From: Chamaesiphon minutus PCC 6605
GTDB taxonomy: Bacteria > Cyanobacteriota > Cyanobacteriia > Cyanobacteriales > Chamaesiphonaceae
Length of the DNA: 64,000 nt
NCBI RefSeq assembly: GCF_000317145.1
Contig: NC_019697.1
Span: forward strand, 744,001-808,000
Direction: 5' to 3'
The notes under the pieces are model-generated. The model did no database searches. It had not been told where the DNA came from and was given only the letters and a program-made list of their open reading frames with translations. The position numbers were made by a program, and so were the translations under genes. The stretch's first letter is position 1; every line of letters begins with the position of its first letter. Of this stretch, positions 8,358 through 49,896 are shown piece after piece.

Positions 8358-8379
8358 AGAATCGTATTTATAGATTTAA

Positions 8380-8409
8380 AACCTGTAGAGATTAGCTACA
8401 GGTTTTTTT
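8380..8409 (+). terminator. Rho-independent terminator of chlH
   Basis: A 9-bp stem, AACCTGTAG (8380-8388) against CTACAGGTT (8396-8404), encloses a 7-base loop and runs straight into a run of seven T. It starts 23 bp after the chlH stop. Confidence 0.9.
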
Positions 8410-8493
8410 ATGTCCAACTATTATATTAAGTTATTTAAGATTGGGTACACTACTTATTAAGGCACATCAATTCCAAGTGCAACAAGTAATAAA

Positions 8494-8510
8494 AAGGAGA
8501 AGGCATTATT
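8494..8510 (+). promoter_or_regulatory. Strong ribosome binding site preceding an in-frame ATT
   Basis: AAGGAGAAGG at 8494-8503 is the best Shine-Dalgarno match upstream of the reverse transcriptase. The next in-frame codons are GGC, ATT (8505) and ATT (8508). The nearest conventional alternative start is TTG at 8529, about 30 bases from the site and too far for normal use. The frame is closed by TAA at 8490. Initiation at ATT would add 7 or 8 residues. Confidence 0.5.
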
Positions 8511-8528
8511 TTACCAATCAGCTCTTTC

Positions 8529-10427
8529 TTGCAAGAATCTCATATCAAAAGTGCTATAGAGCTTCTCAAAATTCAAGTTGCATCTACAAAATACAACTAT
8601 CGTTCCTTAGATTTTGAAATTATTAGAAGAGAAAGCTCTTTGGATATAATCACACCTGAAGAATTTTACAGGAATTATATTAAAAATGATATCTGCTTTA
8701 ACTATCCCTATCTATTTAGTTCTATTCCTTACTCTGTCCCAAAAGGTGATGGGGGAGTCCGTAAATTTCACTTTCTTGAAACTCATCTACGCATTCTGTA
8801 TTATTCACTAGGCTTCTATTTTCTTGATTTGACAAAGGATGTCAGAATCGAACTAAAAGGAATCCAGGATCGCTCATTTATGTACACTCATTATGGTGCA
8901 GACATAAATCCTGCTAGTTTAGGAAGAAGTGACATTGATTACAAAAAAGACTATCAAAAATTCACGAGTAAAATACGCAAAACAGCGCGTAATGCCGTAA
9001 AAGATGGTAAGATTGCTGTTTTGCATTTAGATATTCAAGATTTTTTCCACTCAATCGAACACTCACTACTGACACAAGTGTTGAGAGAACAGGCTCTCCC
9101 CGAAGCGCAACTCCGGCTAAAATATAATGAACAAACTAGATTGACAATCAGAGAAATTTTATTTTTAATAATGCAGCGGTCTGAAGGTTTACCTATCTCT
9201 CAGCACAATATCATATCTAACTTACTCAGTCATCTTTTTCTCCATCATCTCGATTGCTATATTAGAGAGATTCAATTAGAGCTAGGCTCATCTTTCTTGT
9301 TAACATATCATCGTTATGTTGATGATATGTTTATAACTGTTAAATTTCCAATTGGAGAAAGTAATCAAAGTATTGGTACAAAAATGCTTGATATATCTAC
9401 TAGAATAGGTGAGTACTTATCTGGTAATCTTGCACTTAGCCTGAACCCACTAAAAACAAGGCTGGACATCATATCATCAGAAGATGAAGTGGATAGCTTA
9501 ATTGAGCGTAGTCGTCTAGTTAGCTTTTACCAACCTTTACCCGATGAAGGCGGAGAGCCACCAAAAACAACTTTAAGTCGGACTGTAGAAATTCTAACCA
9601 AGTTGAAAGCTGAATACAAGGAAAGAGGACATGTGTCCAGACTATCCACAAATGATGATCTTGCATTAAAACAATGTTTTCAAAATGCAGTAATTCAATA
9701 TACTGATATTGAGGATGTAAAGAAACAGCTTGAAAAAGTTTTGCAAGATTTTCCATCAGCACTCATACCAAAAAGTATGAAAGTTTTAGTATTTTTAATA
9801 TCTCGCGTACCAATTGTATTAAAAAGTCTGATCGAGCATGTCTCCGCTAATCTATGTGATTTGCGACCATCTTTAATCACTCTTTATTTGGCAGAAAATT
9901 TAATGCTTATCGAGCAGTATAGAAATGAGATAGACGATAAAATAGTAGACCTTCAGAAAAAATCTTCTAGCTCATATATTTACTTACTTAGTCGTCTTGT
10001 CATTCCTAGTATTCCATCTAGAGATCGATACATCAATATAGAAAATTGTGAATTAGAAGAACATAGTAGTATCATATATCAGATTCGTTGTGGCATTATT
10101 GCCGAAAAACGTGGATTTCATGGTGTAGCTTACAATCATTTATTAAATACTCTTCAGGAGTGGTGCTTTGTTCACAGAGAATCTAGCAATAAAAAATCTC
10201 GCAATCAATATAATTGCAAGGATGTTATTAAGTGGCTTGAGCCTTTCACAGACCATTCTGACATTATTTTTGTAATGACCATGTTCGACAGAAGAAATCG
10301 CAATACTATTTCACATCCAGGAGATGAAGGAGTTGAAGTATTAACAATAGATAATTTAGAATATAAACAACATTTGGAAAAATTGAACTCATTTTTTAAT
10401 AGAATTTATCCAAGATTATTAAGATAA
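8529..10427 (+). CDS. AbiA-like reverse transcriptase with C-terminal HEPN domain (phage defence)
   Basis: This 632-residue protein joins two domains. The first ~310 residues are a reverse transcriptase: motif VPKGDGGVRKF (70-80), motif A LHLDIQDFF (165-173, catalytic Asp168), motif B GLPISQHNIISNLL (220-233) and motif C YVDD (263-266). All catalytic Asp residues are present. A long helical region follows. Near the end, RNTISH (591-596) is an exact RNxxxH motif of HEPN ribonucleases. This order and length match the lactococcal abortive-infection protein AbiA of the UG/Abi RT group, whose AbiK-type relatives make untemplated DNA. No maturase, integrase or intron features are seen. TTG at 8529 has no spaced ribosome site; a strong AAGGAGAAGG at 8494-8503 instead points to ATT at 8505 or 8508 in the same frame. 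The gene is AT-rich and I see no GCGATCGC in it, consistent with transfer. Confidence 0.85.
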   Translation: MQESHIKSAIELLKIQVASTKYNYRSLDFEIIRRESSLDIITPEEFYRNYIKNDICFNYPYLFSSIPYSVPKGDGGVRKFHFLETHLRILYYSLGFYFLDLTKDVRIELKGIQDRSFMYTHYGADINPASLGRSDIDYKKDYQKFTSKIRKTARNAVKDGKIAVLHLDIQDFFHSIEHSLLTQVLREQALPEAQLRLKYNEQTRLTIREILFLIMQRSEGLPISQHNIISNLLSHLFLHHLDCYIREIQLELGSSFLLTYHRYVDDMFITVKFPIGESNQSIGTKMLDISTRIGEYLSGNLALSLNPLKTRLDIISSEDEVDSLIERSRLVSFYQPLPDEGGEPPKTTLSRTVEILTKLKAEYKERGHVSRLSTNDDLALKQCFQNAVIQYTDIEDVKKQLEKVLQDFPSALIPKSMKVLVFLISRVPIVLKSLIEHVSANLCDLRPSLITLYLAENLMLIEQYRNEIDDKIVDLQKKSSSSYIYLLSRLVIPSIPSRDRYINIENCELEEHSSIIYQIRCGIIAEKRGFHGVAYNHLLNTLQEWCFVHRESSNKKSRNQYNCKDVIKWLEPFTDHSDIIFVMTMFDRRNRNTISHPGDEGVEVLTIDNLEYKQHLEKLNSFFNRIYPRLLR

Positions 10428-10485
10428 ATAGTCAATTTTGATTTCATTAGTTGATAGTGGAAAACTATTTTATCAGATGGGGAAT

Positions 10486-11631
10486 TTAAAAATAATAGCT
10501 TGGATTTACAGCTATCGATCGATTCGCTCTAAAATCACCAGATAAGAACTCATTTATTGTCATTGCTAGTCCTTTTGCTGCTAAAAATGGTACACCATTA
10601 CCAACACCTTTAAACATGTCAGTAAGCGACATCTTTGCTGGTAACTCAAATTCAGGTGGAAGTGATTGAATCGCTATAGCTTCTGCTATCGATATCCTTC
10701 TGGCTTGATAAGGGTGTAAATGAACTTCATTATTTCCATAGCAGGCTGTAGGCGAATATCTCCACCTATGTAAACGCTTGTAAGATTTTTTAGAATCATC
10801 GCCTTCAAGCACAGACAAAAATCTGCTAAGTCCAGCACGGGGAGTAAAACAGTGCTGACTATTAGGATGGTGATTTACATCATTTTTTTCAAACCAATGC
10901 TGTACTGTTAAATCGATAGGTACTCCGGCAGGACAAGTTAAAGATGAATTTTCTCCAAATGGATCTGTTTTAGCCCAAGGATAGGATTGAATCATATCGA
11001 TTGAATAAAGTTTGTTTATATCCCACGGAAATTGAGATTCTAATTCCTGACTCGATCTCATTGGTACTAAATCCGATCTAAAGCCAATGGAGATTGCTCT
11101 TTCCCTACTTTGCGGAACGCCATATTCTAAAGCATTAATCAAACTATCTGTGATTAAATATCCATTCTGTTCTAATCTCGATCGCATTCGATCGTAAAAC
11201 AATCGATGTTTAGCAGTAGACCACAAACCTTTGACATTTTCAAACAAAAAGAAATCTGGTTGATATCGACAGATGAGTTCTACATAAGTTTCTGTCAATT
11301 TACCATTTTCTCCCCTACCGCCTCGATTCTTGCCACCAACTGAAAAATCTGGACAAGGTGGCCCAGCAATAAACCCAACTAAAGAGCCATCCTTTCTAGC
11401 ATCGATTAATAAATCTCTCAACTTCTCTACTCTCTCCGATTCGAGCAAACTATCAGCATCACAGAGATCGTACCCATATTCTGGCTGCGATAACTTCATC
11501 TGACTACGTGAGTACTGATAGCCACCTAAAAATGATGGTTCGATCTCGTTCGCATAGGCAATGTCAAAACCAGCCACTTCAAAACCTAAATCGAGAAAGC
11601 CAATACCAGCAAAGAACGAGAAAATTTTCAT
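10486..11631 (-). CDS. DNA C5-cytosine methyltransferase, apparently without a restriction partner
   Basis: This 381-residue m5C methyltransferase has its motifs in standard order: motif I FFAGIGFLDLG (6-16, SAM binding), motif IV GPPCPDFS (90-97, catalytic Cys93), motif VI FENVKG (130-135, Glu131), motif VIII QSRER (174-178), then a target-recognition region, motif IX-like RRISIAEAIAIQSLPPEF and motif X GVGNGVPFLAAKGLA. Motif IV reads PCP rather than the usual PCQ. The recognition sequence cannot be read from the protein. It is divergent from a small XRE regulator across a 95-bp gap with overlapping promoters and a shared operator-like repeat. It converges on the reverse transcriptase gene, leaving 58 bp. 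No restriction endonuclease is visible. It may be a solitary methyltransferase or the remnant of a type II system. Confidence 0.93.
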   Translation of the reverse strand: MKIFSFFAGIGFLDLGFEVAGFDIAYANEIEPSFLGGYQYSRSQMKLSQPEYGYDLCDADSLLESERVEKLRDLLIDARKDGSLVGFIAGPPCPDFSVGGKNRGGRGENGKLTETYVELICRYQPDFFLFENVKGLWSTAKHRLFYDRMRSRLEQNGYLITDSLINALEYGVPQSRERAISIGFRSDLVPMRSSQELESQFPWDINKLYSIDMIQSYPWAKTDPFGENSSLTCPAGVPIDLTVQHWFEKNDVNHHPNSQHCFTPRAGLSRFLSVLEGDDSKKSYKRLHRWRYSPTACYGNNEVHLHPYQARRISIAEAIAIQSLPPEFELPAKMSLTDMFKGVGNGVPFLAAKGLAMTINEFLSGDFRANRSIAVNPSYYF

Positions 11632-11664
11632 CTATCTGCCTAACAAAGGAGGTTATGAGTTAAG

Positions 11665-11721
11665 ATTATTACAAATTAGTTTAGGGTTTGTCAATCTAGT
11701 TTATCTAAATTAATTTGTAAT
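11665..11721. promoter_or_regulatory. Divergent promoters under a near-perfect operator-like inverted repeat
   Basis: Arms at 11668-11683 (ATTACAAATTAGTTTA) and 11706-11721 match as inverted repeats at 15 of 16 positions, 22 bp apart. For the methyltransferase, the minus strand has TTGACA (11694-11689) and AATAAT (11670-11665) 18 bp apart, so its -10 box lies in the left arm. For the regulator, TTGTCA (11688-11693) and TAATTT (11711-11716) are 17 bp apart, with that -10 in the right arm. A protein bound to both arms would cover both promoters. Confidence 0.65.
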
Positions 11722-11726
11722 CATGT

Positions 11727-11936
11727 ATGGCATTGAGCGATCGCATCGTCAGTCTCCGTAAACAGCACAATTTATCTCAAAGGGATATCGCTTACGCCTT
11801 GGGAATAACAGATCAGACGGTAAGTAACTGGGAACAAGGACGTAGTGAACCAAGACTCACCATTAGACAAGTAGTTTTACTATGTAGTATTTTAAACTGT
11901 TCCTTGGCCGATCTTGACGATGGCAAAGATCGATGA
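11727..11936 (+). CDS. Small XRE-family regulator, C-protein-like
   Basis: The 69-residue protein is a single Cro/CI-type helix-turn-helix: IVSLRKQHNLSQRDIAYALG, then ITDQTVSNWEQGRSEP and a helical remainder. Size and position resemble controller (C) proteins of restriction-modification systems, which bind their own promoter and that of the neighbouring gene. ATG at 11727 lies five bases past the operator-like repeat, so the mRNA may be nearly leaderless, as is common for C proteins. Control of the divergent methyltransferase and itself is inferred from geometry. Related XRE proteins also act as antitoxins, but no toxin of normal size follows. Confidence 0.82.
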   Translation: MALSDRIVSLRKQHNLSQRDIAYALGITDQTVSNWEQGRSEPRLTIRQVVLLCSILNCSLADLDDGKDR

Positions 11937-12016
11937 GTCGGGAAGTCGATGAGATCTTTCGAGCGTTAATCGATTGGAAATTTCCCCCTCTATTATTGAG
12001 ACTAGAAAGCGGTTAG
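11933..12016 (+). CDS. Possible 27-residue ORF coupled to the XRE gene
   Basis: Its ATG overlaps the XRE stop codon (ATGA at 11933-11936), an arrangement often used for translational coupling. The peptide starts MSREVDEIFRALIDWKF and ends LLLRLESG, looking like an amphipathic helix. No family is recognised. It may be a real small protein, the remnant of a longer partner gene such as a lost nuclease, or chance. No frame continues past the TAG at 12014-12016. Confidence 0.3.
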   Translation: MSREVDEIFRALIDWKFPPLLLRLESG

Positions 12017-12064
12017 CCACCTAATAAGGAAAATAACGTTAGATTGTCTTTTCAAATTAACTCT

Positions 12065-14446
12065 TTACTGCCTCACTAACTGAGGAAACTTTTTACATAA
12101 AGCCGAAAACAAAGGTGATGGTTTACTATCTTGTAAGCGATCGCCTTGCTGCCAATTAAAGCGATTCCACAAAAATGGGGCTTGCTGCTCGGATGCCAAC
12201 CATAATAGTTTTTTAGCTCTGGTAATCGCTACATACAATAACCGCAAGTCTTCTCCTTGTTTGAGATAATTAGCTAGCTCCCATGCATCTCTAGGTGTCG
12301 GTAAAGATTGATGATGGAGATGGGCGCGAATTTTGGCACGGGCGACTTCTGCTAAGGTAAAGTCGCCTAAGAATTTGGCACCTTGCGGCGTCCATAATTG
12401 TCCGGGTATTTTGTCACTTAAAAAGGGGATAAAGACATAATCCCAGTCCAATCCTTTGGCTTTGTGCATGGTAATAATCGTCACTTGTCCTGATGCGGTG
12501 TAGCGAGATTCAGAACCATCATCGATATTTTCAAAACCTTCAGTCGTGACGATTTCTTGCAAGACTTCGATCGTGGAATAAATCGAACCGCGCCCGTAAG
12601 TTTGCATTGCAATTCGATCGGCTAATTTATCGGCTGTCGCTAGTTCGCTAGACTGGTAATTCAATCGATCGGCTAAATAACTAATCAGTTGATAATGGGG
12701 TAAAGTCAATCTCGATCGCAATAATTCGCAGCAGATTTCGCGCGCGCGGCGGACTGTTGGCGACTGCGGGATTTCTAAGATACTCGGATAGAGAAAACGT
12801 TCGGGAAATACGGCTAGGGCATCAAGATCTTGGGCGTCAATTAATTTCCGTTCTAATAAAACTTTGAGCGTGGCTTTGAGATAATCGCTAGAATGCGGGC
12901 GTGTGATAAATTGAAATAAGACCAGTAATTCTCCTGGAATTTTAGACGTGCGATCGCCTTCGCCTGCTTCAAAAAGTTTGATTTCGGGATGCAGGCGTTT
13001 CCAATCAGCCAGCCTGTCAAAGATGAACTTTGCTTGGCGATTTTCGCGGACTAAAATGGCTGCATTTGCCGTCGGATTGGCTTTAAATAAAGTTGTCAAT
13101 CGCTGCTCGATCGAGCGAACGGATTCGTAGACATCGCTGGGTGTATGAAATTCTACCCCACCATCTTGAGCTGTCGGATTTGGTTGGGCGTCTCCAGGCG
13201 ATACGGGACGGATCGTTTGCAGCCAGAAGACTGATTCTGTCTCGGCTGTGTCGTGGGTGACTCGCTCTGGCGATAGCGTTGGCGGTTGGAGAAATTTATT
13301 TCCCCAATCGAGGACAAAGTTGGCAGCATCCATAATTATTTGGGTACTACGTCCGGCTTGCTCCATTTTTTCCAGTCGCGGCGAGCCAAGATCGCCAATC
13401 TGACTGCATTCGTGGCAAAATTCCCGAAAATATTTGGGATCGGCAGGGGTAAAGGTGGAATTAATCGCTTGATTGGGATCGCCGACGCGAATCAGATTGA
13501 GTCGATGTTCGTAGCGAACATCCGGCTCGGAGGGATGGCGATCGGGAAGTTCGGCCAAATGGCGTAGTAGCTTTTCTTGGAGGGGACTAGAGTCTTGTGC
13601 TTCATCTTCAAATACAGCAAAAACTTGTTGCTGCCACAATCTGCGCGCAGTGGGGTCTTGCATTACCCGCAAAGCCCCAGCAATCATCTCGTCATAGTCG
13701 AGATATCCTTGACTGTCTAGCAACTCCTGATAAGCCTGATAGAGTCCAGCTCCGATACTCAAAATGTCATAACGATCCTCGTTCCGAGGGGCTACGCCAA
13801 CGGGATACAATTTGGCAACTTCCCACAGATCGGCGGGTGACAAACCCGAACTTTTGGCTTCGCGGACAGCGGTGAATGCCAAGCTGGGTAGTACTTCTGT
13901 CCGCAATACCGACTGACGGCGCAGGCGTTCTGTCTCCTCCCCATCGAAGCCTTCTCCTTCGAGCAAACAGCGATAACTGTGAGGGTTCTGACTCAGCCAG
14001 CTTTGAACGGTATCCTCGATTAGTTTGTGGTTGGCTGAGGGCATCACCAACGTACGATCGGTCAAATCGAGCTTAGATAATTCGGGATGCTTGCTGGCAA
14101 TGCTCAATGCCAAGCTGTGAATGGTATTAACGCTATATCCGATCGGCGGTAGCCCCAATTCTTGGAGACAATTCTTGATTTTATCTTTAATATTTGCGGC
14201 TGCCGATCGGGTTAGGGTCACGATTATCAACTGACGCCGTTGGTGCAATTTTTCGCGGGCAATTGTTATTGCCGCAGCTACAGCCATACTATGGGATTTT
14301 CCCGCCCCTGGGACTGCGGAGACTGCTAAGGGGCCAGAATGCCAATCGGCCAGGGTTCGTTGACCCAGGCGCAATCCTTGCCGCCACTGAGCGATGATGC
14401 GATCTCGATCGCTGGTCAGATTATCTAAATCGGTAGCTGCGAGCAT
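12065..14446 (-). CDS. UvrD/Rep-type ATP-dependent DNA helicase
   Basis: This 793-residue superfamily 1A helicase has motif I AVPGAGKSHSMA (Walker A, residues ~45-56), motif Ia region VTLTRSAAANIK, motif II FEDEAQDSSPLQ (DExx), motif III RVGDPNQAIN, motif V ITMHKAKGLDWDYVFIP and motif VI LLYVAITRAKKLLWLA. It would unwind DNA 3' to 5' in repair or replication restart. It looks like the standard cyanobacterial UvrD-like paralogue rather than a defence helicase, since no nuclease domain is fused. A short repeat-derived stretch VGVAPRNE lies mid-protein (DNA 13784-13801). The gene ends ~130 bp from the regulator region and begins beside a repeat-rich gap. Confidence 0.92.
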   Translation of the reverse strand: MLAATDLDNLTSDRDRIIAQWRQGLRLGQRTLADWHSGPLAVSAVPGAGKSHSMAVAAAITIAREKLHQRRQLIIVTLTRSAAANIKDKIKNCLQELGLPPIGYSVNTIHSLALSIASKHPELSKLDLTDRTLVMPSANHKLIEDTVQSWLSQNPHSYRCLLEGEGFDGEETERLRRQSVLRTEVLPSLAFTAVREAKSSGLSPADLWEVAKLYPVGVAPRNEDRYDILSIGAGLYQAYQELLDSQGYLDYDEMIAGALRVMQDPTARRLWQQQVFAVFEDEAQDSSPLQEKLLRHLAELPDRHPSEPDVRYEHRLNLIRVGDPNQAINSTFTPADPKYFREFCHECSQIGDLGSPRLEKMEQAGRSTQIIMDAANFVLDWGNKFLQPPTLSPERVTHDTAETESVFWLQTIRPVSPGDAQPNPTAQDGGVEFHTPSDVYESVRSIEQRLTTLFKANPTANAAILVRENRQAKFIFDRLADWKRLHPEIKLFEAGEGDRTSKIPGELLVLFQFITRPHSSDYLKATLKVLLERKLIDAQDLDALAVFPERFLYPSILEIPQSPTVRRAREICCELLRSRLTLPHYQLISYLADRLNYQSSELATADKLADRIAMQTYGRGSIYSTIEVLQEIVTTEGFENIDDGSESRYTASGQVTIITMHKAKGLDWDYVFIPFLSDKIPGQLWTPQGAKFLGDFTLAEVARAKIRAHLHHQSLPTPRDAWELANYLKQGEDLRLLYVAITRAKKLLWLASEQQAPFLWNRFNWQQGDRLQDSKPSPLFSALCKKFPQLVRQ
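13784..13801 (-). repeat. GTTGGCGTAGCC-type dispersed repeat inside the helicase gene
   Basis: On the minus strand it reads GTTGGCGTAGCCCCTCGG. It is in frame, encoding VGVAPR, in a region between helicase motifs where added residues would be tolerated. Related copies are at 895-909, 41939-41953 and twice at 42298-42352. Confidence 0.65.
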
Positions 14447-49293: not shown

Positions 49294-49896
49294 CTACTGG
49301 CTAACGCTCACTGGCGATCGCTCAGTCAAACCAAAATCGGACGGGAGAGCTACATAAATCAAATGATCTACCCATCGTTCATTTTCATAATAAAAGCCTC
49401 TTCTGACGCATTCTTGCTGTAATCCGACACTTTGAGCGAGCGCGATCGATTGATGATTGTCGAGGTTAATTGCTGCTTCGATGCGATGATATCCTAGCTG
49501 CTCGAATCCCGCAATTACAGCAGCCTTAGTCGCCTCTTTCCCAAACCCCTGTCGCCAATATTGGTTGTGGATGCTGTAACCTAAATTAGCCCATTGTTTC
49601 TCTTCGCGTTGAATGGTGGAAATATCGACATAGCCGAGATGTCGATCGGTTTGTTTGGAGAAGATCGCAAAAATGTAAGCATAATCGATCGAGGCTTGTT
49701 GTTGATGGCGTTGACATAATTCGGCAAACCAATTAGCATCGCAACTGTCTAAACTAATTTGTCCTTCGTCATAGGACGATTGTGAAGGCAATCTCTCGGC
49801 ATGGCTAGCATACCAAGATTGATAATCATCGGCTGTTTGAGGGCGCAGAATCAGACGGTCGGTTTCAATTTTTAACGTCCATGGTGTCATCGTCAC
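49294..49896 (-). CDS. GNAT acetyltransferase, RimJ/RimL-like
   Basis: The 200-residue protein has the RimJ/RimL order: LKIETDRLILRPQTADDYQS at the start, a strand with HLGYVDISTI, then YSIHNQYWRQGFGKEATKAA (acetyl-CoA loop Q-x-x-x-G-x-G/A) and the end LGYHRIEAAINLDNHQSIAL. It should acetylate an amino terminus or a small amine, with substrate unknown. The gene stands apart, flanked by GATCGATC-rich gaps. Confidence 0.85.
   Translation of the reverse strand: MTMTPWTLKIETDRLILRPQTADDYQSWYASHAERLPSQSSYDEGQISLDSCDANWFAELCQRHQQQASIDYAYIFAIFSKQTDRHLGYVDISTIQREEKQWANLGYSIHNQYWRQGFGKEATKAAVIAGFEQLGYHRIEAAINLDNHQSIALAQSVGLQQECVRRGFYYENERWVDHLIYVALPSDFGLTERSPVSVSQ

Follow-up and report, generated by a model that had tools for sequence, protein, structure and literature searches.

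A divergent C5-methyltransferase/XRE gene pair in Chamaesiphon minutus, a probable relic of an RCCGGY restriction-modification system

Introduction

In the Kpn2I restriction-modification system, the controller protein C.Kpn2I represses the divergently oriented methyltransferase gene, and the nuclease gene is transcribed separately and independently of C (PMC6237814). The methyltransferase DmtD is specific for RCCGGY (PMC4390886), as is M.AvaIX of Anabaena variabilis, a strain in which RCCGGY methylation was detected (PMC8112702), and the nucleases Cfr10I and Bse634I cleave this sequence as R↓CCGGY (PMC4081073).

The DNA analysed here, referred to as the window, is a stretch of 64,000 nucleotides from the 6.76 Mb genome of the cyanobacterium Chamaesiphon minutus PCC 6605, which shares its genus with C. 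polymorphus CCALA 037. A preliminary description of the window had noted an m5C methyltransferase gene (M) and an XRE-family regulator gene (XRE) lying divergently across 95 bp in a layout recalling C-protein restriction systems, with no endonuclease visible, and had proposed that the pair might be a solitary methylation switch, an addiction unit or a partner of the adjacent reverse transcriptase (RT)-HEPN gene. The titles and abstract openings surveyed contained nothing on this locus; relevant to it were papers on Kpn2I, HIP, the MspJI methylome and AbiA and a review of type II systems.

Results

Organization of the M/XRE locus

Both genes were found as described (Table 1), separated by the 95 bp of positions 11632-11726. 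M scored higher against a type II methyltransferase model (522 bits) than against the Druantia DruM2 model (464 bits), and its open frame holds the conserved columns of the family, with 7 departures at columns that are conserved to at least 95% among 87 relatives. Residues 286-308, which we take to be the block before motif IX, are conserved among those relatives and in the M of the window; Anabaena DmtD was not among the rows checked by name. XRE is a small single-domain HTH_3 protein encoded beside M, as C proteins are beside M or R, and the resemblance of the layout to C-protein systems is supported. When the sequence upstream of the XRE ATG is read in frame, a stop is met before any further ATG. 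A reading frame of 27 aa overlapping the XRE stop (11934-12016) was set aside, since no counterpart was seen by eye in G005, a more diverged Chamaesiphon relative (80% DNA identity).

Table 1. Features of the locus, with positions counted from the first base of the window
Feature	Position	Strand	Remarks
C5-cytosine DNA methyltransferase (M), 381 aa	10486-11631	-	PF00145, 163 bits; frame open, apparently intact
XRE regulator, 69 aa, putative repressor of M and of itself	11727-11936	+	HTH_3, 47 bits
Left arm of inverted repeat, putative operator	11668-11684		overlaps the edge of the candidate -10 of M; kept in L033 (G005)
Right arm of inverted repeat, putative operator	11705-11721		5 bases before the XRE start; kept in L033 (G005)
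Candidate sigma-70-type promoter of M	11665-11694	-	TTGACA, 18 bp, AATAAT; 11/12 match; -10 at 11665-11670
AbiA-like reverse transcriptase (P0003)	8529-10427	+	stands where C. polymorphus has the nuclease gene
Possible remnant of the 3' end of a nuclease gene	10451-10484		21/34 bases as in L034 2217-2250; ungapped continuation past the M stop
Recombined block, 1130 bp	10995-12124		2 mismatches to C. polymorphus; flanks 8% and 13% divergent

The putative operator and the promoters

Between the two start codons lies an inverted repeat that had been put at 15/16; its presence was confirmed and its count revised to 16/17, with a spacer of 20. Of 1000 dinucleotide-shuffled versions of the intergenic DNA, none scored 16 and three scored 15, placing the repeat beyond chance. 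The XRE start does fall five bases past the right arm, as had been stated. A promoter scan of 351 bp returned one site, the M promoter candidate, against 0.9 in shuffles, so that the scan alone is not above chance; no XRE promoter passed the same scan. As to the earlier proposals that the arms contain both -10 boxes and that the XRE mRNA is nearly leaderless, the candidate -10 of M overlaps the outer edge of the left arm, and the -10 box and transcription start of XRE stay presumptive. Binding of XRE to the arms is likewise putative.

The repeat and its spacing are retained in G005 (locus L033). The intergenic stretch of C. polymorphus is identical to that of the window, which is no independent test of constraint because the middle block has been recently exchanged between the lineages (see below). 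A 14-base operator-arm pattern matched three times in the window (0.2 expected), and two of these matches are the operator itself. The third, an exact match at 49749-49762, lies inside a predicted acetyltransferase-like reading frame (49294-49896, minus strand) and was set aside as an extra operator. Candidate operators elsewhere were also rejected: the best score before the C. polymorphus nuclease gene, 10.6, is equalled in 5.4% of 200-bp stretches drawn at random (n = 500) and in 8.9% of those matched for GC (n = 123), and the best score before the RT gene, 6.6, in 32.6% of random stretches of that length.

A sister species carries the same pair with a nuclease gene

At locus L034 of C. polymorphus (on the same contig as L025, C153 of G003), a helicase gene, XRE and M are followed by a convergent nuclease gene, the product of which matches the Cfr10I/Bse634I family (PF07832) at 110 bits. 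Its M is 93% identical to that of the window. This is the one relative in Chamaesiphon with the full set of XRE, M and nuclease, and the set stands on a contig of 4200 bp. When the C. polymorphus nuclease was used as a query against 60 genomes, matches were obtained in six and none in the genome of the window (G000). A PF07832 search of G000 also found nothing, in a run in which no control genome matched, and a second PF07832 search, in which 5 of 11 genomes matched, was again negative for G000. The nuclease search at home covered this one family, and for it the earlier observation that no endonuclease is visible was upheld. A nuclease gene for the same target elsewhere, which the preliminary description had named as counter-evidence, was not found at home within PF07832; a cognate-type nuclease gene is present in the relative, beside the same pair.

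The window aligns without gaps to the C. polymorphus contig over 2241 bp, where the reported alignment ends. The possible nuclease remnant continuing past this point (Table 1) has a binomial P of 3e-5, for a stretch picked after the alignment had been seen, and a gapped local search there was unconvincing, with 76 of 2000 shuffles equally good. No similarity above shuffles was found between the 5' flank of the RT gene and C. polymorphus DNA.

Recombination, selection and decay

Mismatches to C. polymorphus are unevenly spread along the alignment: the helicase portion at its start has 48 over 576 bp, the following 1130 bp have 2, and the closing 535 bp have 72. The nearly identical block comprises the end of the helicase gene, XRE, the intergenic DNA and M codons 1-212, with one border inside the M gene, a pattern pointing to recent recombination of the regulator/M block between Chamaesiphon species. 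Beyond the border, M codons 209-364 gave a dN/dS of 0.12 against C. polymorphus (0.41 for codons 209-260 alone), and by this pairwise comparison the 3' part of M is under purifying selection. XRE is 100% identical to its C. polymorphus counterpart in amino acids and 79-85% identical to that of G005, with a pairwise dN/dS against the latter of 0.09 (8 extra codons left out).

In G005 the M gene (L033 1070-1420) starts with ATA instead of a start codon and is interrupted in frame by one stop, at codon 44; its homology is lost after about 96 codons, where an inverted repeat was seen by eye. XRE, the operator repeat and its spacing survive there while M is broken, and neither the sister-nuclease query nor the PF07832 search found a nuclease of the Cfr10I/Bse634I family in this genome. 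G005 is better evidence of constraint on XRE and the repeat than C. polymorphus.

Relatives of M and of the regulator

Searching 60 genomes with the M protein returned the 93% match in G003, the fragment with an in-frame stop in G005 and seven matches of 51-61% in other genera; many of the weaker matches are other C5 methyltransferases. From a scan of genome contigs, in which 432 M relatives were confirmed, the best 80 of 432 were kept. The loci examined came to 89, or 87 relatives after removal of the duplicate L025 and the broken L033. A full, convergent nuclease gene of the Cfr10I/Bse634I family stands beside M in 15 of the 87 (C. polymorphus and 14 others), two have fragments, and in 70 the fetched flank shows no nuclease gene of this family; for two of those 70 it includes less than 1 kb of downstream sequence. 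The fragments (L077 1898-2149, 83 aa; L103 8942-9232, 96 aa), from Rhizonema and Komarekiella, look as if the nuclease were decaying.

In a tree built by a quick method with SH-aLRT support only, the M of the window falls in a set of six rows (support 98), and all five other rows carry the nuclease. L031 and L084, both in this set, were marked as long branches at risk of false joining, and a long branch (1.82) also leads to the Chamaesiphon pair. Label shuffling was uninformative, 500 of 500 shuffles being as low.

Among the M loci examined, Chamaesiphon alone has this XRE as a neighbour of M. In five of the 15 full systems (L102, L084, L030, L029 and L044) an HTH_3 gene runs into the start of the nuclease gene, the layout of a C-R operon, and four of those five proteins align to the Chamaesiphon XRE at 23-30% identity. 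This degree of similarity and the different position suggest that the Chamaesiphon regulator differs from the C proteins of the related systems and stands beside M instead. Its best PDB matches were HigA-2 antitoxins (4.7e-7).

The presumed target and its depletion

Family, distribution and the nuclease partners, rather than an alignment to Anabaena DmtD, are the grounds on which the M genes are regarded as DmtD orthologues, and the M of the window is taken to be DmtD/M.AvaIX-like, with RCCGGY as its presumed target. The genome of the window contains 27 RCCGGY sites (GCCGGC 8, ACCGGC/GCCGGT 12, ACCGGT 7). A 264-kb sample, consisting of the window and L166-L175 of the same genome, contains none against 58 expected, which extrapolates to about 1,500 genome-wide. 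Nine of the 27 sites are accounted for by three in each copy of three near-identical rRNA operons; Rfam, run on one copy to which the other two are 99% identical, identified an rRNA operon, and a placing of the three repeated site pairs in mobile elements was dropped.

Two genomes from another genus of the family, G009 and G010, have 2854 and 3443 RCCGGY sites. Chamaesiphon genomes in which M was not detected are also poor in the site, with 106 in the 4.2 Mb of G004 and 23 in the 4.1 Mb of G006, and each of the five Chamaesiphon genomes sampled (G000, G003-G006) is depleted of both RCCGGY and RGCGCY, while G009 and G010 are not. In the 264 kb, RGCGCY occurs 3 times (106 expected), and 10 of the 64 palindromic hexamers are absent, with 9.7 to 69 copies expected of each (for example TTCGAA, CAGCTG, GTCGAC and GAGCTC). 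As the depletion is strong also where M was not found and affects many palindromes, it was rejected as proof of this system and marks a genus-wide restriction history rather than this system alone. Deamination was set aside as a cause, the expected products being not clearly in excess (950 vs 981 and 681 vs 648).

The neighbouring reverse transcriptase gene

The protein encoded next to M has the YxDD and R-x4-6-H motifs of AbiA, as YVDD at 263 and a C-terminal HEPN-type RNRNTISH at 589, and matches the PADLOC AbiA model over nearly its whole length (2.6e-37). It was judged to be a separate defence-type gene. Immediately downstream of the magnesium chelatase H gene (8358-8528 of the window; L156-L160), the sequence varies among the Chamaesiphon genomes G002, G004, G005, G006 and G007 and includes small genes resembling, by eye, toxin-antitoxin pairs; one small gene is shared by G002 and one G004 copy, and in contig C139 of G004 (L156) the chelatase gene is present as two pieces or copies with small genes between. 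This flank is perhaps an insertion hot spot.

Discussion

The M/XRE pair is most probably what is left of an RCCGGY restriction-modification system of type II, akin to Cfr10I and Bse634I, with the nuclease gene lost and the AbiA-like RT gene now in its place. This reading was reached because the same pair occurs with a nuclease in C. polymorphus, no such nuclease was found at home, and the other five rows of the M set in the tree all keep it. Gain of the nuclease in C. polymorphus, instead of loss in the lineage of the window, is formally conceivable, because the full Chamaesiphon set is known from a single relative and a short contig.

Among the earlier proposals, a solitary switch, in which XRE and M would act epigenetically on host genes through RCCGGY methylation, is improbable. 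Its open M and XRE frames, and the 70 of 87 M relatives lacking this nuclease family in the fetched flank, would suit it, but the genome of 6.76 Mb has only 27 presumed target sites, a third of them in rRNA operons, the XRE companion was seen beside M only in Chamaesiphon, and M is broken in G005. The addiction-unit proposal finds no support either, since without the nuclease no killing part is known. A single defence system of M and the AbiA-like RT, with methylation as a mark of self DNA, is harder still to credit. The two genes run towards each other and are 58 bp apart, the RT gene occupies the place of the nuclease gene of the sister species, and among the 60 genomes three of the six with the RT also have M when the window's own genome is counted (P = 0.038). 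This co-occurrence, in which neither the broken M of G005 nor a single weak RT match in G033 was counted, falls to two of five (P = 0.13) once that genome is left out, and in both of those genomes the genes are far apart. Moreover, none of the five other RT loci read (G017, G020, G026, G042 and G054) has this M beside the RT, and G026 has an unrelated methyltransferase (25%) about 3.6 kb away; the RT homologues most similar to it (58-64% identical; in G017 and G020) belong to genomes without this M; no clear operator precedes the RT gene; and a cloned Lactococcus abiA is reported to defend E. coli (PMC11077055). A related idea, that the AbiA-like polymerase has functionally replaced the nuclease and that the old mark or regulator still shapes the timing of the new effector, is similarly far-fetched.

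Of a different order is the possibility that the pair is functionless, decaying debris, a variant of the relic reading that is compatible with it and may be entertained tentatively. M is already broken in G005 with XRE persisting, and target sites are few; against this, the M frame of the window is open and dN/dS is low both for M codons 209-364 and for XRE against G005, values that may mostly predate the loss of the nuclease.

For the relic itself, it seems reasonably likely, by analogy, that XRE represses both M and its own gene. XRE dimers bound to both arms would prevent transcription from the M promoter and hold back further XRE synthesis, in the way that C.Kpn2I restrains M.Kpn2I; M would thereby stay low and leave phage DNA unprotected. 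With the nuclease gone little would be left for M to do, there being at most 27 sites to methylate. M may plausibly have been kept for now against RCCGGY-cutting systems from the sister lineages with which the locus recombines; alternatively, its decay would merely be delayed, having already happened in G005.

Three things deserve note: the regulator differs from the C proteins of related systems, an Abi gene stands at the place of the nuclease, and the regulator/M block has recently recombined. Three Chamaesiphon species, one for each step, illustrate a likely route to a solitary methyltransferase and beyond: a full system, then a locus that has lost the nuclease and carries a different defence-type gene at that position, then a broken M with regulator and operator left. 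The comparison further points to the recruitment of different regulators by related RCCGGY systems, and to the ability of a methyltransferase to persist where the genome is nearly emptied of its presumed target sites.

Comparison with known systems

The closest regulatory parallel is Kpn2I, in which C and M are divergent with overlapping promoters; the pair in the window has a like layout, for which like regulation is presumed. The lack of a clear operator before the C. polymorphus nuclease gene is in keeping with the C-independent nuclease of Kpn2I. C.Kpn2I, however, is described as binding inside its own gene, whereas the repeat of the window lies between the genes, and the window is without a nuclease. 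Sequence similarity is also not significant: XRE matched PDB entry 4yba ('Regulatory protein C'), presumably C.Kpn2I, at E 0.13.

By family, distribution and nuclease partners, M appears to be an enzyme of the same kind as DmtD and M.AvaIX, and most of the relatives examined likewise lack an adjacent nuclease of the Cfr10I/Bse634I family; the Chamaesiphon-only XRE beside M sets it apart, in a comparison that did not include an alignment to Anabaena DmtD. Nuclease genes of the Cfr10I/Bse634I family converge on M in C. polymorphus and at 14 further loci. No such gene was found in the genome of the window, and a third of the full systems differ from the window in the HTH_3 gene that overlaps the nuclease start. 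The RT shares with AbiA its C-terminal HEPN-type motif and the nearly full-length PADLOC match, but scored 125 bits against NCBIfam TIGR04499, below the curated cut-off of 250, and matched no PDB sequence at E 0.01. The parts and logic of the locus are of known kinds, and their combination is a fresh example.
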